This document shows, piece after piece, positions 7,565 through 26,999 of a DNA stretch of 64,000 nt (positions are counted from its first letter, which is position 1; each line of letters starts with the position of its first letter). This DNA comes from Streptomyces rapamycinicus NRRL 5491. Lineage in GTDB: Bacteria; Actinomycetota; Actinomycetes; Streptomycetales; Streptomycetaceae. The stretch is taken from the NCBI RefSeq assembly GCF_024298965.1, contig NZ_CP085193.1, positions 6,448,001 through 6,512,000 of the forward strand, given 5' to 3'. The position numbers and the translations under genes were made by a program. The notes under the pieces were generated by a model. The model saw only the letters and a program-made list of their open reading frames with translations, did no database searches and was not told where the DNA came from.

Positions 7565-7735
7565 GTGGCGCTCTTCCTGTTCCTGGTGATCGTGGCCATC
7601 GTGCTCGGCCTCATCGGCTGGGTGGTGCACGGGCTGGGCTATCTGCTGGTCATCGGCGTGGTGGTGCTGGTGGTCGACATCGTCCTCGGGCTGGTGCGGC
7701 TGGCGCGGAGGCCCCGGGGGCGCCGGATCCGATGA
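7565..7735 (+). CDS. Small hydrophobic membrane protein overlapping the GH8 gene
   Basis: A 56-aa protein with GTG 7565, 8 nt after GAGGAGAGG; a GTG at 7556 is the alternative. Two hydrophobic helices (LFLFLVIVAIVLGLIGWVV and YLLVIGVVVLVVDIVLGLV) end in a basic tail (RRPRGRRIR). Its stop overlaps the ATG of the GH8 gene by four bases (ATGA), so the two are likely translationally coupled. Function is unknown; it could help place the otherwise signal-less GH8 enzyme, but that is speculation. Confidence 0.7.
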   Translation: MALFLFLVIVAIVLGLIGWVVHGLGYLLVIGVVVLVVDIVLGLVRLARRPRGRRIR

Positions 7736-9006
7736 CGGGACGCGCCGAGGCCCGCGTCCCCTTCGGGACGCATGCCATCCCGTACGCCCCCGGCACGCTC
7801 CGGCCCTCCTGCGACGGTGACCCGGCGGCGGCCGACCGGCGGGTCCTGGACCACTACGAGCTGTGGAAGGCGTACTTCCTGCGGTCGGGCGACGAGGTGG
7901 GCGGCCCGGGGCGGTGCGCGGTGTTCACCCCCGACGCGGCGCACCCGTTCGTGGCCGAGGCCCAGGGCTACGGACTGGTGATCACCGCGCTGATGGCGGG
8001 CGCCGACCCCGACGCCCGCACACTTTTCGACGGCATCCTCCGGCATGTCCTGGCCCACCCCTCCGTGAACCACCCCGATCTGCACGCCGCCCAGCAGGAC
8101 GCCGAGGGCCGGGACGTCGGCGGACGGGACTCGGCGACCGACGGCGACCTCGACATCGCGTACGGACTGCTGCTCGCGGCCCGGCAGTGGGGCAGCGGCC
8201 ACAGCAGCCATAGCGGTCATAGCAGCCACAGCAGCTACAGCAGCTACAGCAGTCACAGCGGCTACGACGACTACGGCGGCTACGACTACGAGGCGCTCGC
8301 GGTACGGCGGATCGACGCCGTCATGGAGTGCGAGGTGCACCCCACCACCCGGCTGACCAAGCTCGGCGACTGGTCCTCGGGCCGCTATGACGAGGTCTCC
8401 CGTACGTCGGACTGGATGCCGGACCACTTCCGGGCGTTCCGGGCGGCCACGGGCGATCCGCGGTGGGACGAGGCGCTGGACGCGCAGCTGTCGCTGGCCG
8501 GGGCGCTGCGCGCCCGCCATGCCCCGGCCACCGGGCTGCTCCCCGACTTCGTCGTGGACACCACGTCCGGCGAGCCGGGGCCCGCGCCGGGCCAGGTCCT
8601 GGAGAGCCCGCACGACGGCGACTACCACTGGAACGCCTGCCGCACCCCCTGGCGGCTCGGCGCCGACGCGGTGACCAGCGGCGACACACGCACTCGGGCG
8701 GCCGCGCGCGGGCTCAGCCGCTGGGCGAGGGCGGCGACGGGCGGTGATCCAGGGCGGATCCGGAGCGGGTACCGGCTCGACGGCACGGCCTATGGGGACC
8801 CGGGCTCGCCCGCCTTCTTCGCGCCCTTCGCGGTCGCCGCGCTGACGGAGGGCGAGGACGGCTCAGGGGCCGAAGGGGCGCAGGGCTGGCTGGACGCGCT
8901 GTGGACGCGGATGTGCGCCTCCCCGCCCGATCCGGCCCGCGCCTACGAGGCGGGGGTGCGGCTCCAGTCGATGCTGGTGGTCAGCCACAACTACTGGGTG
9001 CCGTAG
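7732..9006 (+). CDS. Glycoside hydrolase family 8 (endoglucanase-like)
   Basis: A 424-aa protein. The GH8 (alpha/alpha)6 motifs are visible: VAEAQGYG (Glu76, expected acid) and SATDGDLDIAYGLLLAARQW (Asp137 region). The C-terminus ends VVSHNYWVP. GH8 enzymes cleave beta-1,4-glucans, xylan or chitosan by inversion. No signal peptide is visible, unusual for the family. Residues about 155-186 are a Ser/His/Tyr/Gly low-complexity insert from a CACAGCAGC-type reiteration (8197-8290). The last 26 bp overlap the convergent polyprenyl synthase gene. Confidence 0.8.
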   Translation: MTGRAEARVPFGTHAIPYAPGTLRPSCDGDPAAADRRVLDHYELWKAYFLRSGDEVGGPGRCAVFTPDAAHPFVAEAQGYGLVITALMAGADPDARTLFDGILRHVLAHPSVNHPDLHAAQQDAEGRDVGGRDSATDGDLDIAYGLLLAARQWGSGHSSHSGHSSHSSYSSYSSHSGYDDYGGYDYEALAVRRIDAVMECEVHPTTRLTKLGDWSSGRYDEVSRTSDWMPDHFRAFRAATGDPRWDEALDAQLSLAGALRARHAPATGLLPDFVVDTTSGEPGPAPGQVLESPHDGDYHWNACRTPWRLGADAVTSGDTRTRAAARGLSRWARAATGGDPGRIRSGYRLDGTAYGDPGSPAFFAPFAVAALTEGEDGSGAEGAQGWLDALWTRMCASPPDPARAYEAGVRLQSMLVVSHNYWVP

Positions 9007-13677: not shown

Positions 13678-14367
13678 TCACTCCTCCGGCCCCTCCGGCT
13701 GCGCGGGCTTGAAGCCGAATTCGGCGGCCTTCGCGACCGCCTCCAGCTGCGAGCGCGCCTCCAGCTTCTCCAGGATCCGGCGCACATGCGTGCGCACCGT
13801 GGCGTAGCTGATGCTCAGCCGCTCCGCGACGGCCCGGTTGTCCAGGCCGTGGCTCATCAACGTGAGGATCTCCTGCTCGCGCGGGGTCAGGCTGTCCAGG
13901 CGCTCGGTCTGCTCGGCGGTGGACCGCGCGTCCTCGCGGTGCCGCGCCAGCACCTCCACCAGCGTGCTGGCCGGGATGAGGGTCTCGCCCTCGGCGGCCG
14001 AGCGGATGGCGGAGGCGATCTCGTCGCCGCTCGCCGACTTCAGCAGATAGCCGCAGGCGCCCGCCTCCACGGCGGCCAGCAGCGCCGAGTCGCTGGCGTC
14101 GGCGCTGAGGATCACGATGGCGACGGACGGGTCATGGGCCCGGATGCCGCCGGCCGCGTCGGCCCCGGTGCCGTCGGGCAGCCGGAAGTCGACCAGCGCC
14201 ACATCGGGCTTCATCTCCTTGGCCATCGGCACGGTCTCGGCGACCGAGTCGGCCCAGCCGACCACCGTCAGGTCCGAGTACTCGGCCAGCAGGGCCCACA
14301 GCCCCTCGGCCACCACCCGGTGGTCCTCGACGATCAGCACCTTCGTCAATTCGGGAGGTGCGGTCAC
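13678..14367 (-). CDS. NarL/FixJ-type response regulator of the receiver-PAS kinase
   Basis: A 229-aa protein with GTG 14367 overlapping the kinase stop (GTGA). The receiver shows Glu-Asp (IVEDHRVVAEG), phospho-acceptor Asp60 (VALVDFRLPDGTG), Ser (LSAD) and Lys (YLLKSA). The LuxR HTH reads LTPREQEILTLMSHGLDNRAVAERL, and the C-terminus ends with a short acidic tail. It is the last gene of a three-gene operon with the hybrid sensor and a 143-aa protein. Confidence 0.93.
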   Translation of the reverse strand: MTAPPELTKVLIVEDHRVVAEGLWALLAEYSDLTVVGWADSVAETVPMAKEMKPDVALVDFRLPDGTGADAAGGIRAHDPSVAIVILSADASDSALLAAVEAGACGYLLKSASGDEIASAIRSAAEGETLIPASTLVEVLARHREDARSTAEQTERLDSLTPREQEILTLMSHGLDNRAVAERLSISYATVRTHVRRILEKLEARSQLEAVAKAAEFGFKPAQPEGPEE

Positions 14368-16271
14368 GGCTGCGGGTCCCCTTCGGGGGAGTCGGGGGTG
14401 GCGAGCGGCGTGTCCGGCGGAGTGCCGAGCGGCACCCAGAACTCCACGGTGGTGCCGGAGCCGGGTTCGCTCTCGATCCGGCACCAGCCGCCCGCGATCT
14501 GGGCCCGCTCCTGGATCAGGGAGAGCCCGAGGTGGCCGGGGCGGGACTCCACCTCGAGCGGGTTGTAGCCCTCGCCGTCGTCGACGATCCGCACCAGGCA
14601 GCCGTCGTCGAGCCCGAGCAGCTGTACGTGGACCGTCTTGGCGTGGGCGTGCTTGCGCACGTTCACCAGCGCTTCCTGGGCGGTCCGGTAGATCAGCGCC
14701 ATCGTCTCGGCCGGGGGGTGGGCGGTGAGCCGGTCCTCCAGCCGGTAGGTGACGCCGGTCTCGGTGCGTATCTGTTCCAGCAGGCCGCGCAGCGCCCCGG
14801 CCAGACAGCCGTGCTCCAGGCTGGACGGCCGCAGGTCGAAGATCAGCTGGCGCAGCCGGCTGAGCGAGAGCTTCAGGGTCTCGTCCAGCTTGTCCATCAC
14901 CCGCTGCTCGTCCGGGTCCCGCAGCCGCCGGCGCAGCTGCTGGAGGCGGAGGCTGGCAGCGGTGATCACCTGGATGGTGTCGTCGTGGATGTCGGCGGCG
15001 ATCCGGCCGCGCTCGGCCTCCTGGGCGTGGACCAGATGGCTGAGCAGCGCCTGGCGGTCGCGGTCGGTGACCTCCAGCAGCTCCAGGCTGCGCTCCAGGA
15101 CGAACTGGGCGCGCTGCACCTCGGTGATGTCGCGGATGGTCAGGACGGTGAGCAGGCCCTCCTCCGTGCGCAGCGGGCTGATGCTGACGTCGGCGGGGAA
15201 CTGCTTGGCGTCGCTGCGCCGCCCGACCAGCTCCATGCTGTGGCCGACCGGCTCCTCGACGCTGTCGTCCCATTCGCGCAGCGAGACGGTGAGCGGCTGG
15301 TCGGGCAGCAGCGCCTCCACGGCCCGGCCGATCAGATGGTCGCGGTCGTAGCCGAAGAGCGCCTCGGTGCGGTGGTTGGCCGCCTGGATCCGGCCGCTGG
15401 TGTCCACGATCAGCATCGCGTCCGGGGAGGACTCGATGAGCTGGCGGAACCGGCTCTCGGCCGCCCGCAGCTGGCTGAGGTCGGCGACGAAGACCACCCC
15501 GCGGGGCTGCCGGCCCTGCAGATGGCCGCCGCTGAACTGGGCGGGGAACTCGCTGCCGTCGCGGCGGCGGCCGCTCATCGCGGACGGTGTGGTGAAGACC
15601 CGGCCGATCAGCTGCTCGGAGGCGGTGCGGTAGCGCTCGGGGACGAGGTCCCGCAGCCGCTTGTCGCGCAGCTCCGCCGATCCGTAGCCGAACATGTGCC
15701 GGATGTGGGCGTTGGCGTACTCGATCCGGCCGCGCGGGCCGACCACGAGCACTCCGCAGGGCGCGTGGCTCAGCAGCTCCAGATACGAGTCCTCCAGCCG
15801 GTTGCCGACCAGGTCCTCGAACCGCCAGGAGGCGCGCTCGGCGCGGCGCAGCGGTTCGGCGCAGTCGGCGAGCAGCTCAGCGGACATGCTGAACTGATCG
15901 CGGGCGGCCCGGATGATCGCCTCGAGGATCTCCTCGGCGGGGGTGCCCTTGACCAGATAGCCGCTGGCCCCGACGGCGAGCATGTTCAGCACGGTCTCGC
16001 GTTCGCCGTGGGCGGAAAGCGCCACCACCCGGGCCCCGGGGACCTGGTCGCGGATGGCCCGGACGCTGCTGGGGGCGTCGCCCCGGGGCATGTGCACATC
16101 CATGATCACGACCTGCGGGCGGTGGTCCACCGCCGCGCGCACGGCCTGCTCATGGTTGATGGCCAGGCCCACCAGCTCCAGGTCCGGGTGGGAGTCGATG
16201 AGGTCGGCGAGCGCCTCGCGGACGGCCGGGTCGTCATCGGCCACCACAACGGCGATCCGGTTGTCGCCCAT
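14364..16271 (-). CDS. Receiver-PAS-PAS-histidine kinase
   Basis: A 635-aa soluble protein. Domains in order: a receiver (residues 1-125; Asp12-14, acceptor Asp58 in VVIMDVHMPRG, Lys108); PAS 1 (about 155-270; ELLSHAPCGVLVVGPRGRIEYAN); PAS 2 (about 272-385; LIESSPDAMLIVDTSGRIQAAN); HisKA_3 with His429 in RIAADIHDDTIQVI; and HATPase (RTAQEALVNVRKHAHA; RIVDDGEGYN). A receiver at the N-terminus of a NarL-type kinase is the reverse of the usual hybrid order and suggests phospho-input gating of the kinase. The stop overlaps the response regulator start. The upstream 143-aa gene ends 2 bp before the ATG. Confidence 0.92.
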   Translation of the reverse strand: MGDNRIAVVVADDDPAVREALADLIDSHPDLELVGLAINHEQAVRAAVDHRPQVVIMDVHMPRGDAPSSVRAIRDQVPGARVVALSAHGERETVLNMLAVGASGYLVKGTPAEEILEAIIRAARDQFSMSAELLADCAEPLRRAERASWRFEDLVGNRLEDSYLELLSHAPCGVLVVGPRGRIEYANAHIRHMFGYGSAELRDKRLRDLVPERYRTASEQLIGRVFTTPSAMSGRRRDGSEFPAQFSGGHLQGRQPRGVVFVADLSQLRAAESRFRQLIESSPDAMLIVDTSGRIQAANHRTEALFGYDRDHLIGRAVEALLPDQPLTVSLREWDDSVEEPVGHSMELVGRRSDAKQFPADVSISPLRTEEGLLTVLTIRDITEVQRAQFVLERSLELLEVTDRDRQALLSHLVHAQEAERGRIAADIHDDTIQVITAASLRLQQLRRRLRDPDEQRVMDKLDETLKLSLSRLRQLIFDLRPSSLEHGCLAGALRGLLEQIRTETGVTYRLEDRLTAHPPAETMALIYRTAQEALVNVRKHAHAKTVHVQLLGLDDGCLVRIVDDGEGYNPLEVESRPGHLGLSLIQERAQIAGGWCRIESEPGSGTTVEFWVPLGTPPDTPLATPDSPEGDPQP

Positions 16272-16927: not shown

Positions 16928-18466
16928 CTAATCCCCGCGGCCCTGCGACATGTTGATGCTCGCCCTGGCGACGCCACCGCTCTTCTGGCCGATGAGCTGG
17001 AAGGACACACCGCTCTCATCCGCCGGAGTGATCTTGTACGAGCCCACGGCCGCCGCCTTGCCCCGGCTGTCCACCTGGAAGGTCCCGATCTTGCGCTGGG
17101 CCTTCGAGCCCGAACCGGCGTAGGCGGTCACCGTCTCGCCCGGGGCGAACCCCGCGACATAGAAGCTGAGCGTGGTGCCCGCCCTGCCGCCGAAGGCGCT
17201 GGGCTCGGCGGACGGGCTGTACGGCAGCACGGTGAAGCCCGAGCGGACCACGGCCCGGCTCTGGTCGCCGATCGCCATCAGCGTCTGCCGCCCCTTGAGG
17301 CCGAACGGCACGTTGAACGCCACGTCGCGGATCTGGCCCATGCCGTTCGCCTGGGCGGTGAAGGCCGGGAGGCCGCCGGTGGAGTTGATGTAGACCAGCA
17401 CCCGCTCGCCGGGCGCGAACTTGTTGGCGGACAGCGTGATCCGCTGGCCGGCCTTGAGCGCGTACGGCTTGGACTTCATCGACGGGTACATGGCCAGCAT
17501 CTGGAAGGGCGCGGTGGCCGTGGTCTTGCTGCGCTTGCCCACCAGGACCAGGGTGCTGGAGCCGGTCGGGGCCACGCCCACCTTGATCGCCGCGTGGGCG
17601 ACGCCGCCGCTGCCGTCGGTGTGCAGCGTGGTGACGGGGATGCCGGTGGTCCGGCCCCAGAAGACGTCGATCGGCTCACCCGGGCGGAAGCCGCGGGCGG
17701 AGACCGTCACCACGTCACCGGGGCGGCCCACCATCTTGTTGATCTTGGCGGTGCCGACGGCGCCACCGGTGATCACCTTGGCCTCCGCCGTCTTGCTGCT
17801 GCCGCGCTGCTGGGCGACGAGCGTCGCGGGCCGGTTGCCCGCGGTATCGGGCATGGTGAACCGGGCGTAGATCGACCCGAACCGGTCCGAGCGCACACTG
17901 CCGATGGCGCGGCCCTTGGTGTCCGACTTCCGGGCCTTGATCAGGATGTCCACGGTGGCCTTCTTGTCGAAGCCACCGCCCTCGACCGCGGCGCTGCCGC
18001 CGGGGGTGACCAGGCCCGGGTTGATCACGATGATCGGGCCGGACGCCTGGGGGACCCGCTGATTGCCCAGCTTGATGGTCTTGGGCTGCTTGGGTGGGCG
18101 TATCTCCTGCTCCTGCCGGGAGTGCTGCTCCTTCTTCGGGGCGCCGCCGCCTCCGCTGCCGGTGGTGTTCAGGGCGCCTCCGAAGCCGCCGCGCGCGACC
18201 ACCTGGACGAGCGATCCGACGATCGCGAAGACCACGAGTGCGAGCAGGACGGTCTTCCAGGTGAGCTTTTTCTTCTTCTCACCGTCGGGAGTGTGCTCCT
18301 CGTCGAGGGTGTTTTCCTCGTCGGGGATTTCCTCCTCGTCGAGGATGTCCTCCTCCTCGGGGATTTCCTCGTCGTCGAGGATGTCCTCCTCGTCGGGGAT
18401 GTTCTCCTCGTTCTCGGGATAATCCCTGTCCTCCGGAACGTCCCAGTCGTCGTCGTACTGAGGCAT
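16928..18466 (-). CDS. Membrane-anchored protein with four extracellular repeats and acidic tail
   Basis: A 512-aa protein. ATG 18466 follows GGAGGTGAAGGCC. Residues 1-65 are strongly acidic with a ~12-residue period (EDILDDEEIPEE), then KKKKLTWK and one membrane helix (VLLALVVFAIVGSLVQVV). The outside part has a Gly/Lys/Gln linker and four ~90-residue repeats, three of them with a PG(E)xVxV-type core: VTPGGSAAVEGGGF, RPGDVVTVSARGFRPGE, KAGQRITLSANKFAPGE and RAGTTLSFYVAGFAPGE. They look like Ig/IPT-type beta-sandwiches. It is the last gene of the GtrA-GT2-GT-C operon and may bind or guide the polymer. No known family is assigned. Confidence 0.75.
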   Translation of the reverse strand: MPQYDDDWDVPEDRDYPENEENIPDEEDILDDEEIPEEEDILDEEEIPDEENTLDEEHTPDGEKKKKLTWKTVLLALVVFAIVGSLVQVVARGGFGGALNTTGSGGGGAPKKEQHSRQEQEIRPPKQPKTIKLGNQRVPQASGPIIVINPGLVTPGGSAAVEGGGFDKKATVDILIKARKSDTKGRAIGSVRSDRFGSIYARFTMPDTAGNRPATLVAQQRGSSKTAEAKVITGGAVGTAKINKMVGRPGDVVTVSARGFRPGEPIDVFWGRTTGIPVTTLHTDGSGGVAHAAIKVGVAPTGSSTLVLVGKRSKTTATAPFQMLAMYPSMKSKPYALKAGQRITLSANKFAPGERVLVYINSTGGLPAFTAQANGMGQIRDVAFNVPFGLKGRQTLMAIGDQSRAVVRSGFTVLPYSPSAEPSAFGGRAGTTLSFYVAGFAPGETVTAYAGSGSKAQRKIGTFQVDSRGKAAAVGSYKITPADESGVSFQLIGQKSGGVARASINMSQGRGD

Positions 18467-18490
18467 GGCCTTCACCTCCTCTTCCCATGG

Positions 18491-20320
18491 CTACTGCACA
18501 CGGTAGATTTCCAGCTTGATATTGCCCTCGGTTACCGACCAGACGCGGTCGGAATTTCGCAGCGCCTGGAGGATCCAGTTCTCCCGGCCGTCGGAATTGT
18601 TGAGCATCATGGATCTGCGCATCTTGTTCGACAAGATGATGTAGTCCACGTTCTGCCATCTCTTCTTGAACAGTTTTTCGCGGACATCCGGGTCGGACGA
18701 GGCGTTCCAGTGGGAATGCGCGTACGGGTAGAACGGGCGCACATCGTGCAGTTCACCCCACAGGTCGTCGTCCATGATGATGCGCGAATTCGGCGGTATG
18801 TGCTTGCGCACCCAGGCGATCTGAGCATGCTGCATTCCGGTGAGATTGATCTTCGACTGGTACTGGTCGGCGATCTGCGTATGGCCCTCGGTATTGGTGT
18901 GGACGAGATATCCGGAGGCTGGTGAGGCCAGTAGCAGAATGGCCACGAACGACGGCACGGCGACCCGGGTCACAGAATGCGCGCCGCGCATGAACCGATT
19001 GGCGAACGTGCCCTTGAGCAGCCGGTCCGTCACCATGCCGAGGTTGAGCGCGAGCATCGGGATCAGCGGGGTGACATAGAAGTCCAGCACCACGCTGCCG
19101 CGCACCAGATAGAAGGCGTATCCGAGGGCCAGCGTCCCGGCGATCAGAAAGCCCAGATTGCGCCTGCGGTCCCGCATGCCGATCCACAGGCACATCACCA
19201 TCGCGCACACCCCGGCGATCAGCAGGAACTTGTCCCGGACCAGCCAGCTGGTCTGGAGCAGACCGGTGTGGCTGAAGAGGATGCCCTGGCTACGGTTGAG
19301 CTGCCACCACAGGGTGTAGAGCAGTGAGACATGGTCGGCGGGCGGGTTGTTCAGGTCGAAGTCGAAACCGCTCGGCAGCAGCTCGTTCTTGAGCAGTGCG
19401 TAGGTCACATAGGCGCCGATCGGGGTGGCCGCGGCGAACGGCCAGAGGGTGCTGGTGAACCGGCTGCTGGCCGACCCCTTGACCCTTCGGTAGAGCAGAT
19501 ACATGAAGCTGGGCACGAAGAAGATCGCGTTCTCCTTGGTGATCAGCGCGATCCCCAGCGCCAGCCCGCCACCGAACACCGATCTGATCGTGACTTCCCG
19601 CCTGAGCAGCATGAACAGGCTCAGCAGCAGCCAGAGCATCATCAGGTTGTCCAGCAGGACCTGCCGCTGGAAGTACACCGCGATCGGCGAGACGTTGAAG
19701 AGGAACGCGGTGACGGTGGCGGCCAGCACACTGCCGGACAGCCGCCGGGCGACCTCGAACAGCAGATAGACGGCGGCGACATGCACCAGCAGCATCAGGA
19801 ACCGTCCGGTGTTGATCGCGTTCCCGAAGGTCTCGAACTGCTTCGGCAGCGGGAAGACCCACCCGGCCAGGGTGATCCAGCCCAGCGGGGCGTGGTCGTA
19901 GTCGTAGGTGTACGGGGACAGGCTGGTCTCCCGCACCAGCGACCACGCCCGCTGCATGTAGATGCCCTCGTCGGTGAGGTAGAGGGGGTAGCGGAACAGG
20001 TGGTAGCCGTGGGTGAGCAGCCCGGTCAGCAGGGAGGCGACCAGGGCGATCCTGCCCTTGTTCCCCAGCGGCGGGAACCAGCCGCGCTCCACGGAGAACC
20101 GCGGGCGACGGCGCGGACGTCGCGCGGGGGGCTCTGCGCCCTTGGCCGCCGCGGTGCCCTTGCCCGCTCCGGCGTTCTTGCTCGTCGCGGTCTTCTTGTT
20201 CGCCGCGGTGCTCTTGCTCGTCGCGGTCTTCTTGCTTGTCGCGGTCTTCTTGTTCGCCGCGGTCTTCCGGCCTTCCGCGCCGACGGCCGCCGGCCGCGAG
20301 GGCGTGGTGTTATCCGACAC
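18491..20320 (-). CDS. GT-C membrane glycosyltransferase (ArnT/PMT-like)
   Basis: A 609-aa protein. Residues 1-70 are a Lys/Ala/Thr-rich tail (KKTATSKKTATSK units) resembling histone H1 tails, then basic RRPRRRPRF. The rest has about ten membrane helices with the GT-C first-loop acidic pair in YLTDEGIYMQRAWSL, followed by a C-terminal extracellular domain (HIPPNSRIIMDDDLW). GT-C enzymes use polyprenyl-phosphate sugars on the outer face. The start overlaps the GT2 gene end by 11 bp. It probably modifies or elongates the same glycan; the substrate is unknown. Confidence 0.85.
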   Translation of the reverse strand: MSDNTTPSRPAAVGAEGRKTAANKKTATSKKTATSKSTAANKKTATSKNAGAGKGTAAAKGAEPPARRPRRRPRFSVERGWFPPLGNKGRIALVASLLTGLLTHGYHLFRYPLYLTDEGIYMQRAWSLVRETSLSPYTYDYDHAPLGWITLAGWVFPLPKQFETFGNAINTGRFLMLLVHVAAVYLLFEVARRLSGSVLAATVTAFLFNVSPIAVYFQRQVLLDNLMMLWLLLSLFMLLRREVTIRSVFGGGLALGIALITKENAIFFVPSFMYLLYRRVKGSASSRFTSTLWPFAAATPIGAYVTYALLKNELLPSGFDFDLNNPPADHVSLLYTLWWQLNRSQGILFSHTGLLQTSWLVRDKFLLIAGVCAMVMCLWIGMRDRRRNLGFLIAGTLALGYAFYLVRGSVVLDFYVTPLIPMLALNLGMVTDRLLKGTFANRFMRGAHSVTRVAVPSFVAILLLASPASGYLVHTNTEGHTQIADQYQSKINLTGMQHAQIAWVRKHIPPNSRIIMDDDLWGELHDVRPFYPYAHSHWNASSDPDVREKLFKKRWQNVDYIILSNKMRRSMMLNNSDGRENWILQALRNSDRVWSVTEGNIKLEIYRVQ

Positions 20321-21605
20321 GCGACTCCGCCTCCTCGGTGGTGGCCCGGTGGGCGCCTACGTGCTGTGTCTTCTCCCAGTCATGGCGGCCGAGCATCTCT
20401 CGCCGCATGGCCCGCAGCGCGGCGTACGCCAGCACCATCTGGAAGGGGAACCAGGCGATGGCCATGCGCACGAGCGCCTTCGGCGAGGCTTCGAGGCCGT
20501 GGGCGCTGGTGAACTCGTACAGACCGACCGCCTGGACCAGAAAGTGCGCGGCCAGCAGCAGTACGGGCAGATAGGAGCAGAGCGCGATCAGCACCGGCAC
20601 CTTGAGGATCAGAATCATGCCGAGCGAGATCGGCAGATAGATGCCCAACAGCGCCTGCCCGCGCGGGAACGCCAGGACGTAGAAGGCGAGCCAGCGCTGT
20701 TTGCGCGTCGGCATCTTCTTCCAGGTGCCCTTCTTCAGGGTCTGCATGAAGCCCTGGCTCCAGCGGGTGCGCTGGCGGATGAAGTGGCCGAGGGTCGGCG
20801 GGGTCTCCTCCTTGGTCACATACCGGTCGTCGTAGACCACGCGCACCCGCTCGCCCATGGCGGATATCCGCAGTCCCATGTCGGCGTCCTCGGTGAGGTT
20901 GCGGTCGTCCCAGCCGCCGAGCCGCAGCAGCAGCTCACGGGCGAAGAAGACGGTGTTGCCGCCGAGCGGGATCGAGCCGTAGTGGGCGTGGTAGTGCAGC
21001 CGGCTCTTGAACCAGAAGAAGTACTCCAGGACGTTGAGCGTCGAGTACCAGTTGGACTCGTAGTTCATCAGCTGCACACCGGCCTGGACCACCTTGACCT
21101 TCTCCTGGACCATCACGGTGTTCACCAGGGAGAAGATCTCGGGGTGGATGTCGTCCTCCGCGTCGAAGATCGTCACCACTTGGTTGGCGGTGTGCGGAAG
21201 GGCCGTGTTGAGGCCGTGCGGCTTGTTGATCGGCTTGTCGTCGAACACCACGACCCGCACATTGCGCAGGCCCTTCCGCTTCAGGTCGTCGATCTTCTCC
21301 TCGGCCTTTTTGATCGTGCCGTCGTCGTCCTGTGAGCAGATCACGAAGACCTCCAGCAGTTCGGCCGGATAGTTGGCCCGCACCACGCGCTCGATGGTGC
21401 TCTGGATGACGTCTTCCTCATGCCGGGCGGGCAGCAGGACACTGAAGGAGATCTGGGGCGGCAGGAATTCATCCGGCGCCCGGGCCTTCCGTTCGGCGTC
21501 CGCCCGGTCCCAGGTGTAGAGCATGAGATAGAGAACATGGGCCGACTGCACGGTGAGCAGGATCGAGACCACGATCAGCACCAGGTAGACGATGGCGACA
21601 ATCAT
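20310..21605 (-). CDS. Processive family 2 glycosyltransferase (cellulose synthase-like)
   Basis: A 431-aa membrane protein. ATG 21605 overlaps the gtrA stop (ATGA). One N-terminal helix is followed by the GT2 catalytic domain: FSVLLPARHEEDVIQST, IFDAEDDIHPE (DxD-like), TEDADMGLR (catalytic TED) and RQRTRWSQGF (QxxRW). About four C-terminal helices follow. D, TED and QxxRW together mark processive beta-glycan synthases such as cellulose, hyaluronan or PNAG synthases. No PilZ domain is seen. With GH6 and GH5 genes nearby, a beta-1,4-linked polymer is the best guess. Confidence 0.88.
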   Translation of the reverse strand: MIVAIVYLVLIVVSILLTVQSAHVLYLMLYTWDRADAERKARAPDEFLPPQISFSVLLPARHEEDVIQSTIERVVRANYPAELLEVFVICSQDDDGTIKKAEEKIDDLKRKGLRNVRVVVFDDKPINKPHGLNTALPHTANQVVTIFDAEDDIHPEIFSLVNTVMVQEKVKVVQAGVQLMNYESNWYSTLNVLEYFFWFKSRLHYHAHYGSIPLGGNTVFFARELLLRLGGWDDRNLTEDADMGLRISAMGERVRVVYDDRYVTKEETPPTLGHFIRQRTRWSQGFMQTLKKGTWKKMPTRKQRWLAFYVLAFPRGQALLGIYLPISLGMILILKVPVLIALCSYLPVLLLAAHFLVQAVGLYEFTSAHGLEASPKALVRMAIAWFPFQMVLAYAALRAMRREMLGRHDWEKTQHVGAHRATTEEAESRVG

Positions 21606-22111
21606 CGGCTCCGCCTCCCCCAGACCCAGCTGGTACTCGACGCGAAGTTGACCGCGAAAGCCGCCGCGATGCCGAGGCCGTTCGCCAACAGCAGATGCAT
21701 TCCGGTGCGCACCAGTGACCAGACGATGAGCACATTGACCCCGAGCCCGCCCAGGACCGAGACATTGAACTTGATGAATCGTCCGAGTGATGGCGTGGCC
21801 ACCGCGAAGGTCCACCGGTCGTTCAGCAGGTAGTTGTGAACGACGGCGATTTCCACGGCTATTGACGACGCCGCCAGCAGCGGCAGTCCGGCCCAGTGAT
21901 AGAGGATGAAGAGGACCACCGTGTTCACGATCACACCGCCCCCGCCGACCACCGCGAAACGCAGGGCCAGACCGGGCATGCCCGCCATCGGGTTCCGGAC
22001 CTGGCGGACTCGGAACAGCATTCCGGCCCGCCTGCGGGCATTACGGTCGGTGCTGTCCGCCTCTTCGCCCGGCTCTCCGGTGCGCTCGCTGAACGTTCGG
22101 AAACGCTGCAT
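21602..22111 (-). CDS. GtrA-family membrane protein
   Basis: A 169-aa protein; ATG 22111 after GAGGGAG. Four membrane helices in GtrA pattern: LRFAVVGGGGVIVNTVVLFIL, AVEIAVVHNYLLNDRWTF (the conserved NY..ND.WTF signature), FIKFNVSVLGGLGVN and LLANGLGIAAAFAVNFASS. GtrA proteins are thought to move polyprenyl-linked sugars across the membrane. It is the first gene of the operon and supplies a flippase-like step for the downstream GT-C enzyme. Confidence 0.88.
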   Translation of the reverse strand: MQRFRTFSERTGEPGEEADSTDRNARRRAGMLFRVRQVRNPMAGMPGLALRFAVVGGGGVIVNTVVLFILYHWAGLPLLAASSIAVEIAVVHNYLLNDRWTFAVATPSLGRFIKFNVSVLGGLGVNVLIVWSLVRTGMHLLLANGLGIAAAFAVNFASSTSWVWGRRSR

Positions 22112-22390
22112 CGCGACTCCCTCGGCAGGAGGCTCTTATCGCCGTTGACCCAAGAGTGCGTCACCCGAAAAGGAGGTAGTACCCGCGCTCGGGGGAGCGG
22201 GTGGTACACCTTCGGCGGACCCCTCCTATCCCCCGTATTGGGGAGAGCCGGGGCCGGGGTATAACGGACGGTCCCCCAAAGAAGGGACGGGACGCTCACC
22301 CTCTCGCGGGTGCCAGTACCTGCGGGGGATGCCCAAAGATGAAATGGGCCGGACGGCCTTGCGTCCCGTGCGAGGAGAGTAGGTGACGTA
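22112..22390. promoter_or_regulatory. Divergent control region of the glycan locus
   Basis: 279 bp separate gtrA from the pseudo-subtilase gene. It includes a hairpin (22181-22202; ACCC-GC-GCTC / GAGCGGGT) within a wider imperfect dyad GGTAGTACCCGC / GCGGGTGGTACACC. A second GC-rich stem-prone stretch (22270-22370) lies in the 5' leader of the plus-strand gene. Divergent promoters are expected; no named regulator box or riboswitch is recognised. Confidence 0.45.
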
Positions 22391-23638
22391 ATGTCAGGTC
22401 ACGTGATGTCACGCCATCCATTCGCCGGCCGGGCCGGAGCGGTCATCGCCGTGATGACACTCGCACTGGCCACGCCGGCTGCGGCAAGTGATTCCGATTC
22501 CAGTGGGCTGCACGATTCCAGTGGGCTGCGCGATTCCGGTGGACTGCGCGATTCCGGTGGGCTGCGCGATTCCGGTGGGCTGCACGATTCCGAATGGGCG
22601 CTGACCGCGCTCAAGGCGGAGCGCGCCTGGAAAATCAGCAAAGGCGCCGGAGTGACCGTGGCGGTCATCGGCACCGGGGTCGACGCCTCCCATCCGGATC
22701 TGCGCGGCCGCGTGGTCCGCGGAAAGGATTTCGCGGGCGGCACCGGCGGCTTCGGCACCCGGGACGGCGGCAAGGCGGCCGAGCAGTCCACCCACGCCGC
22801 CGGAATCATCGCCGGCACCGGCCGCAATTACCGCGGCGACGGGGTGTACGGGCTCGCGCCCAAGGCCAAGGTGATGCCGCTCGGCGTCTACCGCGACGGA
22901 AAGCCCCTCGCCGATCCCACCGCGAAGGCCATCCGGCACGCGGTGGACCATGGCGTGCGCGTCATCGACCTGGCCGTCGACTTCAAGCGGCCGACCCCCG
23001 CACTGCGGTCCGCGGTGAAGTACGCCGTCGGCAAGGACGCCGTGATCGTGGCTGGCGCGGGCGACAACGGCAAGATCGGCAACCGGCCCACCTACCCGGC
23101 CGCCCTCCCCGGAGTGGTCGCCGTGGTGGCCACCGACAAGAAGGGCGCCGTCTGGACCTCCTCCCATCACGGCGGGAAGACCCTCCTGGCCGCCCCCGGC
23201 GTCGCCATCCTCACCACCTCCGGCGACAACGACTACTGGACCGGCGACGGCACCGGCTTCGCGGCGCCCTGGGTCGCGGCGGGAGCCGCGCTGCTGCGCT
23301 CGGAGCATCCCCGCTGGAACGCCAACCAGGTGGTCCAGAAGCTGATCGACACGGCCGACCGCAAGGGCTCCTCGGGCCATGACCCGCGCTACGGGTACGG
23401 GGTGATCGCCCCGGCCAAGGCGCTGGCGGACCGGGCCGCGCCCCCCGCCTCGGCCGAGCTCTCCGCGCCCCGCCGCCATCCGTCCACCACCCCGGACGCC
23501 GCCGCCCCCAAAACCGAGGGGGATGAATCCGCCCTGGTCACGATAGGTGTGGTGGCCGGAGTCCTGGTGGTGCTCGCGATCCTGGCGGTGGTGCTGATCA
23601 GCCGCCGCAGGCCGCCCGACAACTCCCACCGCGGCTGA
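22391..23638 (+). CDS. Membrane-anchored subtilisin-fold pseudoprotease (mycosin-like)
   Basis: A 415-aa protein, start after GAGGAGAG. A signal peptide (to about residue 33) is followed by five 6-residue repeats (DSGGLR), the S8 domain, and a C-terminal helix (about 382-403) with a basic stop. The fold follows mycosins: VTVAVIGTGVDASHPDL, THAAGIIAG, GLAPKAKVMPLGV and GTGFAAPWVAAGAALL. But Asp is Gly94 (VIGTG for VIDTG), the catalytic His is Gln132 (QSTH for HGTH), the Ser is Gly289 (GTGFAAP for GTSFAAP), and the oxyanion Asn is Asp225. It should not hydrolyse peptides. GH6 follows after 18 bp. A scaffolding or binding role is inferred. Confidence 0.88.
   Translation: MSGHVMSRHPFAGRAGAVIAVMTLALATPAAASDSDSSGLHDSSGLRDSGGLRDSGGLRDSGGLHDSEWALTALKAERAWKISKGAGVTVAVIGTGVDASHPDLRGRVVRGKDFAGGTGGFGTRDGGKAAEQSTHAAGIIAGTGRNYRGDGVYGLAPKAKVMPLGVYRDGKPLADPTAKAIRHAVDHGVRVIDLAVDFKRPTPALRSAVKYAVGKDAVIVAGAGDNGKIGNRPTYPAALPGVVAVVATDKKGAVWTSSHHGGKTLLAAPGVAILTTSGDNDYWTGDGTGFAAPWVAAGAALLRSEHPRWNANQVVQKLIDTADRKGSSGHDPRYGYGVIAPAKALADRAAPPASAELSAPRRHPSTTPDAAAPKTEGDESALVTIGVVAGVLVVLAILAVVLISRRRPPDNSHRG
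22496..22585 (+). repeat. Five 18-bp in-frame repeats in the pseudoprotease gene
   Basis: GATTCCGGTGGGCTGCGC is repeated five times with few changes, encoding DSSGLH/DSSGLR/DSGGLR/DSGGLR/DSGGLH at the mature N-terminus. Copy number is likely to vary between strains. Confidence 0.9.
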
Positions 23639-23656: not shown

Positions 23657-24730
23657 ATGATCACGAAACTGTGCGGCCGCGACCGCGGCCCCCGCCCGCC
23701 GGCGCGTGCCCGCACCTCCCGGTGGGCGGGGCGGGGCGTCGCCCAGCTGATCGTGATGGTGCTGGTGGTCGAGGTGGTGATGGCGGCGACCACCGTGCAG
23801 GCCCTGTTCGTGGGCCCGGTGCGGCCGCCCGCCACCAGGCCGTCGCTCCCCGTGGCCAAACCGTTCTTCCCGGCCACGACCCGCTTCTACGTCGACCCCC
23901 ACAACCCGGCCGCGACCTGGGTACGGGACCATCAGCACGACCGGCGGGCGGCGGCCATCGCCCGGCGGATCGCCGCCGAGCCCCAGGCCGCCTGGCTCAC
24001 CGAGACCAATGAGTCCCTGATCGAGGAGCGGGCCCGCAACCTCGTCCGCACCGCCGCCGCCCAGCGACGGCTGCCGGTGCTCGTCCCGTACACCATCCCC
24101 CAGCGCGACTGCCAGCAGCTGAGCTCCGGCGGCGCCGGGGACACGGCCGCCTACCGGCGCTGGAGCGACGCCCTCACCCGGGGCATAGGGGACGGGCGCG
24201 CCATCGTCATCCTCGAACCGGACGCGCTGGCCCATATGAGCTGCCTCAAGCGGCGGCAGCAGGCGGATCGGTTCGCGGCGCTGGCGTACGCGGCGCGGGC
24301 GCTCCAGCGGGGCGCGCCAAGGGCCCGGGTCTACTACGACGCCGGGAACTCCGGATGGCAGCCCGCGCGGACCATGGCCGAGCGGCTGCGGCGCGCCGGT
24401 ATAGAGCGGTACGGGGACGGGATAGCGGTCAACGTCTCCAACTTCAACGCCACCGCCGACGAGGTGCGCTACGGGCTGTCGGTGATCCGGGAGCTGCGCC
24501 GGCCCCGGCTGGGGGTCGTGGTGGACACCAGCCGTAACGGGGCGGGTCCCACGCGTAACCACACCTTCTGCGATCCGCCGGGCCGCAAGCTGGGCAGGCC
24601 CCCCACCGCCGCCACGGGCATCCCCGGGGTCGATGCCTTCCTGTGGGTCAAGCAGCCGGGCCAGGCGGACGGGTGTGCCGCCGGTGCGGGGATGTTCGTC
24701 CCCCGCTACGCGTACCGGCTGACGCGCTGA
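23657..24730 (+). CDS. Membrane-anchored family 6 glycoside hydrolase (cellulase)
   Basis: A 357-aa protein; ATG 23657 after GGCAGGAC. A basic N-terminus and one helix (about residues 30-52) anchor it outside the cell. GH6 motifs: VPYTIPQRDCQQLSSGGA (Asp151), IVILEPDALA (catalytic acid Asp189), YYDAGNSGW, VNVSNF, DTSRNG and FLWVKQPGQADG. GH6 enzymes cut beta-1,4-glucan with inversion. It follows the pseudoprotease by 18 bp and is probably cotranscribed. A tethered GH6 beside a glycan synthase resembles the editing cellulases of cellulose biosynthesis loci rather than a nutritional enzyme. Confidence 0.92.
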   Translation: MITKLCGRDRGPRPPARARTSRWAGRGVAQLIVMVLVVEVVMAATTVQALFVGPVRPPATRPSLPVAKPFFPATTRFYVDPHNPAATWVRDHQHDRRAAAIARRIAAEPQAAWLTETNESLIEERARNLVRTAAAQRRLPVLVPYTIPQRDCQQLSSGGAGDTAAYRRWSDALTRGIGDGRAIVILEPDALAHMSCLKRRQQADRFAALAYAARALQRGAPRARVYYDAGNSGWQPARTMAERLRRAGIERYGDGIAVNVSNFNATADEVRYGLSVIRELRRPRLGVVVDTSRNGAGPTRNHTFCDPPGRKLGRPPTAATGIPGVDAFLWVKQPGQADGCAAGAGMFVPRYAYRLTR

Positions 24731-25213: not shown

Positions 25214-25264
25214 AAACGGCCGAATTCCTCTACCTCAACTGAGGTAGGCGGAATTCGGCCGTTT
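25214..25264. promoter_or_regulatory. Near-perfect 24-bp inverted repeat upstream of the receiver gene
   Basis: The left arm (25214-25237; AAACGGCCGAATTCC then TCTACCTCA) pairs with the right arm (25240-25264) with a single bulged base and a 2-nt centre. It is AT-richer than its surroundings. About 10 bp later a partial copy (GGAATTCCTGCAATTGAGGTA) follows. It lies 123 bp before the receiver ATG. It may be a terminator closing the GH6 transcript or an operator; the second partial copy favours regulation. Confidence 0.6.
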
Positions 25265-25386: not shown

Positions 25387-25734
25387 ATGCACAGAGTTCT
25401 CGTCGTGGAGCACCACCCACTGGTGTTGAGTGCTCTCGCCGATCTCGTTGTCGAGGAGCCCGGACTGGAGCTATCCGGAATTGCAGGGTCGGCCCGAGAA
25501 GCAATTTCTCTGGCCAATCACATGCAGCCGGATGTGGTGCTGATCGACGTGGATGAGCCCAGCTGGCAAGCGCAGCGGTTGGTCCGCCTGATCGGCGAAC
25601 TCCTACCGTCCGCGCGGATTGTCCGGCTGACCGCAGTCTCCGACCCGCAGATGGAATGTCTGGAATCTCCGACGAACAACCCCAGCGTCCTGAAAACCGC
25701 AGTACCCGATTTGCTCAGGAGCATCTCCGAATGA
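25387..25734 (+). CDS. Orphan single-domain receiver protein
   Basis: A 115-aa protein, ATG 25387 after GAAGGAG. It is a CheY-like receiver with no output domain: VLVVEHHPLVLSALADLV, Asp54 in VVLIDVDEP, Thr in RLTAVSDP, and VLKTAVPDLLRSI near the conserved Lys. The acidic pair at strand 1 is Glu8-His9 rather than Asp-Asp, so Mg-dependent phosphorylation could be weak. Its stop overlaps the GH5 start (ATGA), a tight coupling between a signalling domain and a secreted enzyme. Confidence 0.82.
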   Translation: MHRVLVVEHHPLVLSALADLVVEEPGLELSGIAGSAREAISLANHMQPDVVLIDVDEPSWQAQRLVRLIGELLPSARIVRLTAVSDPQMECLESPTNNPSVLKTAVPDLLRSISE

Positions 25735-26999
25735 ATTCCCCCATGGACCAGAACAACGCCCCGACCACCGAGACCAAGCGTGCGCCGCGCTCGCAGCGTC
25801 TCCGCTTCGGTATCGCCGCGGCCGTCGTCGCTGCTGCTGCCGTGGGTGGCACGGTCACCGCTTTCGCGGTGAACAACTCCGACGGCCAGTCGGCCACCAC
25901 CACCTCCGCCGCCAAGGCCTCCGGCGCGGGCGCCGAGGGCCCCCTGTCCACCAAGAAGGGCGACATCGTCGACTCCGACGGTAAGAAGGTCGTCCTGACC
26001 GGTGTGAACTGGTTCGGTTTCGAGACCGGCACCTACGCGCCGCACGGCCTGTGGACCCGTAGCTGGGAGTCGATGCTGGACCAGATGGCCAAGCAGGGCT
26101 TCAACACCATGCGGCTGCCGTACGCGAACGACATGTTCAAGTCGTCCGCCAAGCCCGACGGCATCGATTACCACAAGAACCCCGATCTGAAGGGCCTCAC
26201 CCCCCAGCAGATCATGGACAAGATCGTCAAGGGTGCCACCGACCGTGGTATCCGGGTGATCCTGGACCAGCACCGTCCGGACCAGTACGGCCAGAGTGAG
26301 CTGTGGCACTCCCAGAGCCTCTCCGAGAAGCAGTGGATGGACGACTGGGTCAAGCTGGCCAAGCGCTACAAGAACAACGACCGGGTGATCGGCGCCGACC
26401 TGCACAATGAGCCGCGTGGCCAGGCCACGTGGGGCGACGGCAACCCGAAGACCGACTGGCAGCTGGCGGCCACCAAGGCCGGTAACGCCATCCACAAGGT
26501 CAACAAGAACTGGCTGATCTTCGTCGAGGGTACGGACCGCCACAAGAACGAGCAGTTCTGGTGGGGCGGTGACCTCCAGGGTGTGAAGAAGCACCCGGTG
26601 AAGCTCAGCGAGCCGAACAAGGTCGTCTACTCGGCCCACGACTACGGTCCGGGCGTCTACAACCAGAACTGGTTCATGGCGAAGGACTTCCCGAAGAACA
26701 TGCCGGCCATCTGGGAGAAGCACTGGGCGTACATCAAGAAGCAGAACATCGCCCCGCTGCTGCTCGGTGAGTTCGGTGGTAAGAAGACCGCCGGTAAGAG
26801 CTCCGAGGCCGTCTGGCAGAACGCCCTGATGGACTACCTCAAGAAGCACCAGATCAGCTACACCTACTGGACCTGGAACCCGGACTCGGGTGACACCGGC
26901 GGTGTGCTGAAGAACGACTGGAAGACGATCGACAAGAACAAGATGAAGATGCTGGCCAAGTACCAGACGCCGCTCCTGGAGGCGAAGAAGGGGAAGTAA
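25731..26999 (+). CDS. Family 5 glycoside hydrolase (cellulase), membrane-anchored or secreted
   Basis: A 422-aa protein, ATG 25731. A long basic N-terminus and a hydrophobic Ala/Val segment (about 25-47) act as anchor or signal, then a Ser/Thr/Ala linker. The GH5 domain shows VVLTGVNWFGFETG, FNTMRLPY, VILDQHRPD, GADLHNEPRG (acid/base Glu227), SAHDYGPGVY and LLGEFGGK (nucleophile Glu347). No cellulose-binding module is present. Codon choice differs from its neighbours, with many GGT and uniform AAG/AAC/GAG, as in highly expressed genes. It ends at a strong terminator. Confidence 0.92.
   Translation: MNSPMDQNNAPTTETKRAPRSQRLRFGIAAAVVAAAAVGGTVTAFAVNNSDGQSATTTSAAKASGAGAEGPLSTKKGDIVDSDGKKVVLTGVNWFGFETGTYAPHGLWTRSWESMLDQMAKQGFNTMRLPYANDMFKSSAKPDGIDYHKNPDLKGLTPQQIMDKIVKGATDRGIRVILDQHRPDQYGQSELWHSQSLSEKQWMDDWVKLAKRYKNNDRVIGADLHNEPRGQATWGDGNPKTDWQLAATKAGNAIHKVNKNWLIFVEGTDRHKNEQFWWGGDLQGVKKHPVKLSEPNKVVYSAHDYGPGVYNQNWFMAKDFPKNMPAIWEKHWAYIKKQNIAPLLLGEFGGKKTAGKSSEAVWQNALMDYLKKHQISYTYWTWNPDSGDTGGVLKNDWKTIDKNKMKMLAKYQTPLLEAKKGK

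Follow-up and report, generated by a model that had tools for sequence, protein, structure and literature searches.

A mycosin-like protein of Streptomyces lacking the subtilisin catalytic residues is found with a glycan gene cluster

Introduction

Mycosins (MycP; TIGR03921) are built from a signal peptide, a subtilase domain and a C-terminal helix, in this order. A structural role of MycP that is independent of catalysis is already known. Two reports describe that the mycosin is needed for the stability of the ESX complex, where its protease activity is dispensable (PMC5082899), and that MycP5 forms a trimeric cap that trimerises the EccB5 assembly and holds EccB5 domains together (PMC8131196). 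A dead subtilisin fold with a non-enzymatic role has also been described for CspC and CspA, which act in spore germination of Clostridioides difficile (PMC6636752; PMC12880746). Glycosylation systems of the GT-A/GtrA/GT-C type, in turn, bring together a GT2 glycosyltransferase, GtrA and a GT-C-like transferase (PMC13390465). For the gsf cluster of Actinoplanes missouriensis, which is GtrA-dependent, the transmembrane transferase reportedly lacks the GT-C fold, and the main text of that paper mentions neither a protease nor a peptidase nor subtilisin (PMC13390465).

Here, we analyze a protein that combines features of these systems. It is encoded in a stretch of 64,000 nucleotides from Streptomyces rapamycinicus NRRL 5491 (contig NZ_CP085193.1, positions 6,448,001 to 6,512,000), hereafter called the window, to which all coordinates refer. 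Searches for subtilisin-type pseudoproteases, inactive or pseudo-mycosins and inactive subtilases returned no earlier description of it among the papers listed, and those on this gene combination in Streptomyces no description of the cluster, with the subscription literature covered in part in both cases.

Results

The gene at 22391..23638 (plus strand) encodes a predicted membrane-anchored protein of 415 residues, which we refer to as pseudo-mycosin. It belongs to the PF00082 family (peptidase S8) by sequence and fold homology across the whole domain. Its best NCBIfam match is T7SS_mycosin (TIGR03921) with 255.4 bits, below the curated equivalog cut-off of 278.75. Hydropathy reveals the hydrophobic segment of a signal peptide at residues 15-33 (22433..22489, plus strand), and hydropathy and a structure model agree on a C-terminal transmembrane helix at residues 385-403 (23543..23599, plus strand), which together give the predicted architecture of a mycosin. 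Beyond the signal segment, the protein has this one membrane helix, followed by approximately 12 residues, and no second Pfam domain. A short tandem repeat of DSSGL/DSGGL units connects the signal peptide to the first conserved helix (22496..22588, plus strand); it is not seen in the other rows of the printed alignment, which shows one row in two. A Pfam scan of the 17 neighbouring genes in the window detected no type VII secretion component.

Instead, the surrounding genes point to glycan chemistry. Divergent from pseudo-mycosin, on the minus strand, lie a GtrA-type small membrane protein of the lipid-linked sugar flippase family (21602..22111), a GT2 glycosyltransferase with TED and QRTRW motifs (20310..21815), a PMT_2-type (GT-C) membrane glycosyltransferase (18491..20320) and rep515 (16928..18475), which carries an N-terminal anchor and a chain of beta-sandwich domains without a Pfam family and which we used as cluster marker. 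Since the GT2 frame as listed overlaps GtrA, we infer that its start is probably near 21605 (MIVAIVYLV). Behind rep515 follow an open reading frame of 214 residues without a Pfam family, a hybrid sensor kinase (receiver, PAS, HisKA_3, HATPase; 14364..16271, minus strand) and a NarL/LuxR-type response regulator (13678..14385, minus strand). Downstream of pseudo-mycosin, on the plus strand, Pfam, motifs and hydropathy identify a GH6 glucanase with an N-terminal hydrophobic anchor and intact catalytic motifs (23657..24730), a stand-alone response-regulator receiver domain (25387..25734) and, overlapping the latter as listed, a GH5 cellulase-family enzyme with an N-terminal hydrophobic anchor and intact NEP and GEFGG motifs (25656..26999). 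We take the motifs of GH6 and GH5 to be those with catalytic roles, and the QRTRW motif of GT2 to be that of polymer synthases. The first-pass annotation had placed the protein directly before a tethered GH6 and divergent from glycan synthase genes, and our Pfam assignments of the window genes agree.

The hydropathy profiles of PMT_2, GT2 and GtrA display several or at least two membrane segments, and those of rep515, GH6 and GH5 one N-terminal segment each, next to the signal segment and C-terminal helix of pseudo-mycosin; the sidedness of these segments is presumed. A weak hydrophobic stretch of the receiver was taken as part of its soluble fold. Genes of the GT2, GtrA and GT-C type stand together, and in conserved order, as in extracytoplasmic glycosylation systems. 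In the model of rep515, an N-terminal helix is joined to consecutive beta-sandwich domains; the structures that match it best have low TM-scores, are themselves strings of such domains and reveal nothing specific. Relatives of rep515 occur in many metagenomes and in metagenome-assembled genomes named Streptosporangiaceae and Actinoplanes, and the cluster may hence extend beyond Streptomyces; some carry the UniRef name 'aromatic ring-opening dioxygenase LigA', apparently a misnomer. A GH8-family protein (7732-9006; PF01270, 44 bits, partial match) lies approximately 4.7 kb past the NarL-type regulator and represents a third beta-glucanase-type family in the window.

An active S8 peptidase carries an Asp-His-Ser triad and an oxyanion Asn. 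At these positions, the alignment places Gly94 (codon 22670..22672) for the Asp, Gln132 (22784..22786) for the His, Gly289 (23255..23257) for the Ser and Asp225 (23063..23065) for the oxyanion Asn, all on the plus strand. A search of approximately 5.8 billion proteins returned 616 relatives, of which we examined the best 120 together with the query. Of the resulting 121 rows, all four residues are missing in 48 (hereafter dead rows); seven are intermediate and 65 intact, with the fragment P0075 set aside. The replacements had been read from the single sequence in the first pass and recur throughout the family, as no row of the 48 has any of the four residues. Within the dead rows among the best 120 of 616 relatives and the query, the Asp site is Gly in 48/48, the His site Gln in 46/48 and the oxyanion Asn site Asp in 47/48. 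The Ser site varies between Gly (25), Ala (16), Gln (4), Thr, Met and Asp (1 each), and never contains Ser. Judging from their entropy ranks among 286 positions (11th, 96th and 72nd for the Asp, His and Asn sites, 214th for the Ser site), the first three sites are conserved, unlike the Ser site. Hydrophobic stretches are present at the C-terminus in 48/48 dead rows and at the N-terminus in 40/48; the other eight are entries of 316-371 residues, shorter than the query. Several family members bear the database names serine protease or mycosin, so that a family without catalytic residues stands recorded as enzymes.

Phylogenetic trees show how this state arose. In a tree of 88 rows, from which P0009 was omitted, 47 dead rows form one clade (100/97), with the seven intermediates as sister group (100/100) and the 34 active rows all outside both. 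A second search added 17 intermediates, giving 24 in total, and three dead rows (P0256, P0258 and P0259), of which P0256 has Lys at the His site. The second tree, which took 25 of the 51 dead rows then known, again united these in one clade (100/99), with the 24 intermediates beside them and 29 active rows outside. The intermediates retain the His in 24/24 and the Asp in 23/24 rows (Glu in P0052); the oxyanion Asn is present in 0/24, and the Ser is kept in four and gone in 20. As the sister clade keeps the His and nearly always the Asp, the first losses were those of the oxyanion Asn and, in most rows, of the Ser; Asp and His followed later. Judging from alignments and trees, the inactivation is thus stepwise, in two stages and by common descent. 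The four Ser-bearing intermediates stand at three places in the tree, which fits repeated loss and regain of the Ser alike. A search of 393 other class-level genomes with P0050, a member of the sister clade, was negative at 1e-65.

Residual catalysis, be it proteolysis or another reaction through Asp98, His135, Gln132 or Asp225, appears highly improbable. It could draw on the His and Asp still present in the sister clade and on the frequency of His135 (42/48) and Asp98 (43/48) in the dead rows. However, His135 aligns with the second, non-catalytic His of HGTH, and the Ser and oxyanion Asn columns are empty of these residues in 48/48 rows, with a Ser one column earlier in 2/48. A shifted active site and a slip of the alignment were rejected on the position of His135 and the absence of Ser from the Ser column. 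The equivalence of residues with active mycosins, which the first-pass annotation had proposed to check, therefore holds in the alignment, in which no other Asp, His or Ser takes the site. Pseudo-mycosin would accordingly be devoid of protease activity.

To judge whether the gene is maintained, we read 29 copies, i.e. the window copy, 27 loci of named species (L031-L057) and L117. None of the 29 has an internal stop; an in-frame stop codon ends 28 of them, and the remaining copy is cut by a contig end. The triad is missing in 29/29, leaving no orthologue among the copies read that retains it. Sequencing error and a pseudogene were rejected, as all 29 frames are open and the losses are common to 48/48 rows. 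Relative to the window copy, pairs with dS 0.1-0.4 gave a dN/dS of 0.19-0.44 for pseudo-mycosin (9 pairs), 0.28-0.35 for GH6 (4 pairs), 0.16-0.41 for GT2 (10 pairs) and 0.24-0.53 for GH5 (10 pairs). Over dS 0.1-0.9, the median reached 0.50 for pseudo-mycosin (391 pairs, 189 above 0.5), 0.32 for GT2, 0.43 for GH6 and 0.44 for GH5, values in which the distant pairs are affected by saturation. Pseudo-mycosin is constrained but, with the highest median pairwise dN/dS, the fastest evolving of the four genes. It thus presents a subtilisin fold without catalytic residues that is kept by selection, i.e. a putative pseudoprotease. The undamaged frame and the retained surface signal and anchor, both claimed from the single sequence, are borne out by the reading frames and by hydropathy.

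S. dysideae, which has two full copies, also carries what is left of another one, 52 residues in which the Asp site is Gly (L085:4262-4417). This remnant lies on the same contig as L047 and has no recognisable in-frame continuation. The remnant, which was excluded from the 29 copies, indicates that copies of pseudo-mycosin can decay. Together with the fast evolution of the gene, it could speak for a functionless relic that is carried along with the operon. We regard this as scarcely credible in view of the absence of internal stops in all 29 copies, the fixed replacement residues and the anchor in 48/48 rows; moreover, pseudo-mycosin is retained in species in which GH6 next door is lost or split.

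We then asked how tightly pseudo-mycosin is tied to the cluster. A locus search returned 65 loci, of which L031-L057 were treated as the family (27 loci in 26 named Streptomyces species); the others are L085 and 37 loci that are 29-39% identical and stand outside the triad counts, with tblastn run on L059 and L064 only. The replacements recur beside GT2 in 25 and beside GH6 in 24 of the 27 loci, and GH5 and rep515 were found near pseudo-mycosin in 24 and 23, respectively; some of the gaps are contig ends. In a sample of 199 Streptomyces genomes, ten contain rep515 (E <= 1e-30), and the search with pseudo-mycosin (E <= 1e-70) returned the same ten and G160. The latter was rejected as an exception, since the triad of its protein is intact and the 18 kb read contain no cluster genes. 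At these thresholds, the dead form is thus present in 10/10 genomes with the marker and in 0/189 without it; in one of the ten (G166), rep515 and pseudo-mycosin lie on separate contigs. The earlier proposal of a non-enzymatic part of a polysaccharide machine therefore stands as far as maintenance without catalytic residues and the tie to the cluster are concerned, and the part itself is probable. In a genome without the marker, L116:4281-5537 (minus strand) encodes a mycosin-like protease that has an intact triad and shares 45% identity with the window protein; it lies approximately 320 bases from an open frame of 3604 codons with repeats that we take to be of the YD type.

The motifs of the neighbours are intact wherever covered, namely in GT2 (26/26), GH5 (25/25) and GH6 (LEPDA 24/24, DTSRNG 26/26, RDC 23/23). 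Two rows, that of L045 for GT2 and that of L056 for GH5, were omitted from these counts since their matches contain a stop; it falls at query position 60 in the former and 14 in the latter, ahead of the likely true starts. GH6 is gone from L051 and L053, which have pseudo-mycosin and the rest of the cluster, it is divided over two reading frames in L032 and L052, and it is in two pieces of one frame in L045; L032, where the GH5 match is in pieces also, may be an assembly of lower quality. A partnership with GH6 in particular thus receives a mixed answer. Its absence from L051 and L053 and its two frames in L032 and L052 mean that GH6 need not be the partner, whereas L047, a second copy in its species that forms a bare pair with GH6 and has no other sought cluster gene within 21 kb, argues in favour of it.

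Farther away, searches with rep515 in 393 class-level genomes (1e-10) and with its relative P0209 in 197 phylum-level genomes (1e-30) gave no match. P0061, a long metagenomic mycosin with an intact triad, and P0167, a homologue of rep515, are listed with the same longest-contig figure (5788); if they share one contig, an active form in a related cluster may exist.

The linkage to glycan genes raises the question of a surface lectin, in which the former active-site cleft would bind carbohydrate and guide the nascent polymer to GH6 and GH5. Several positions are nearly fixed in the dead family and differ from active relatives, including Trp283, Trp294, Trp309 and Phe198. Trp283 (codon 23237..23239, plus strand), six residues before the lost Ser, is Trp in 48/48 dead and 7/7 sister-clade rows, where active relatives most often have Gly. 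Phe198 stands beside what we take to be the former substrate strand. Such family-specific aromatics near the lost site and the fixed polar residues Gln132 and Asp225 would suit a sugar-binding cleft. This nearness is, however, one in sequence; pseudo-mycosin is kept where GH6 is lost; and Trp serves protein contacts too, three being buried at the EccB5-MycP5 interface (PMC8131196). We therefore consider a lectin unlikely.

Further subtilases are encoded in the S. rapamycinicus genome. It has 11 PF00082 matches, including one sedolisin-like protein and one without its N-terminal part in the stretch read, and pseudo-mycosin alone has its S8 motifs replaced. Four further mycosin-like proteins have intact triads. 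One subtilase match (L129, G000:C1:658000-659400) is possibly broken, with its N-terminal part and catalytic Asp outside the open frame read. Pseudoproteases often regulate active relatives. With the subtilisin fold retained and four such relatives in the same genome, pseudo-mycosin might regulate an active mycosin through mixed oligomers, or act as a decoy or anchor for proteinaceous subtilisin inhibitors. We judge this very unlikely: the dead family has altered and fixed residues at the former substrate-strand positions (Val196 and Phe198), a change expected to disrupt canonical inhibitor binding, and the protein tracks the glycan cluster, whereas subtilase relatives were matched in 41/41 genomes (at the level of matches, not of triads).

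The cluster also possesses regulatory elements. A near-perfect palindrome of approximately 50 bp with the core CTACCTCAACTGAGGTAG (25214..25264) lies approximately 120 bases upstream of the receiver-GH5 genes. Its 18-bp core (25230-25247) has a single occurrence in the 12.47 Mb genome; of 132 fetched loci, 26 contain it, all of them loci of this cluster, and it is kept even where GH6 is lost. The cluster's own regulator may have its target here. Between GtrA and pseudo-mycosin, the leader (22135-22390) shows a mean column identity of 83% over 16 loci and several possible hairpins, which made us consider a structured leader or a riboswitch. It gave no Rfam match, apart from one chance-level hit elsewhere, and its covariation is near zero, with no net covariation. 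In light of the hybrid sensor kinase, the NarL-type regulator and the stand-alone receiver, pseudo-mycosin could sense an envelope signal or the polymer and report to these regulators, similar to CspC, which is described as a possible signalling node (PMC6636752). With one membrane helix and approximately 12 residues past the signal segment, no other Pfam domain and no link to the kinase, we hold this reading to be quite unlikely.

Discussion

Our analysis suggests that pseudo-mycosin is probably a structural or binding component of a machine for a sugar polymer. More specifically, we consider it a candidate non-catalytic structural or adaptor subunit of a membrane-tethered assembly for the synthesis and trimming of a glycan, a reading to which we give an even chance. 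It is the best reading on account of the shape of the protein, its lack of catalytic residues and its occurrence only together with the cluster in our sample. The ancestor would have been a membrane-anchored mycosin-type subtilase, which lost the oxyanion Asn, and in most descendants the Ser, and then Asp and His, and which was kept as a non-catalytic surface protein. The machine would consist of GT2, GtrA, the GT-C transferase, the anchored beta-sandwich stalk protein rep515 and the anchored GH6 and GH5. At the outer face of the membrane, pseudo-mycosin would hold domains of its partners together, like MycP5 does with the EccB5 domains; this scaffold role is modelled on MycP5 of type VII secretion. 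As two species have lost GH6, GH6 would not be the sole partner. Contacts to cluster proteins or to the glycan itself would belong to the same picture.

A bolder version goes one step further. Here, a mycosin that already held a complex together would have been recruited to a polysaccharide complex, catalysis would have been lost in two steps, and the cleft would have turned into a site of Gln, Asp and Trp for a glycan or a partner. We advance this tentatively, as a possibility with a clearly smaller chance than the adaptor subunit as such.

The sister clade preserves a natural order of active-site loss, and the locus draws attention to a Streptomyces glycan cluster that has regulators of its own and two tethered enzymes of glucanase families. 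In addition, the tight link to one glycan cluster offers a testable case of the structural role of a mycosin being reused outside secretion. Compared to the known systems, pseudo-mycosin differs from mycosins in that its triad and oxyanion residue are replaced, its score stays below the cut-off and its gene resides in a glycan cluster. CspC and CspA, compared here by description and not by sequence, are soluble signalling proteins of the spore, whereas pseudo-mycosin is predicted to be membrane-anchored and is linked to glycan genes. In contrast to the GT-A/GtrA/GT-C glycosylation systems, finally, the GT2 enzyme of this cluster carries the QRTRW motif.
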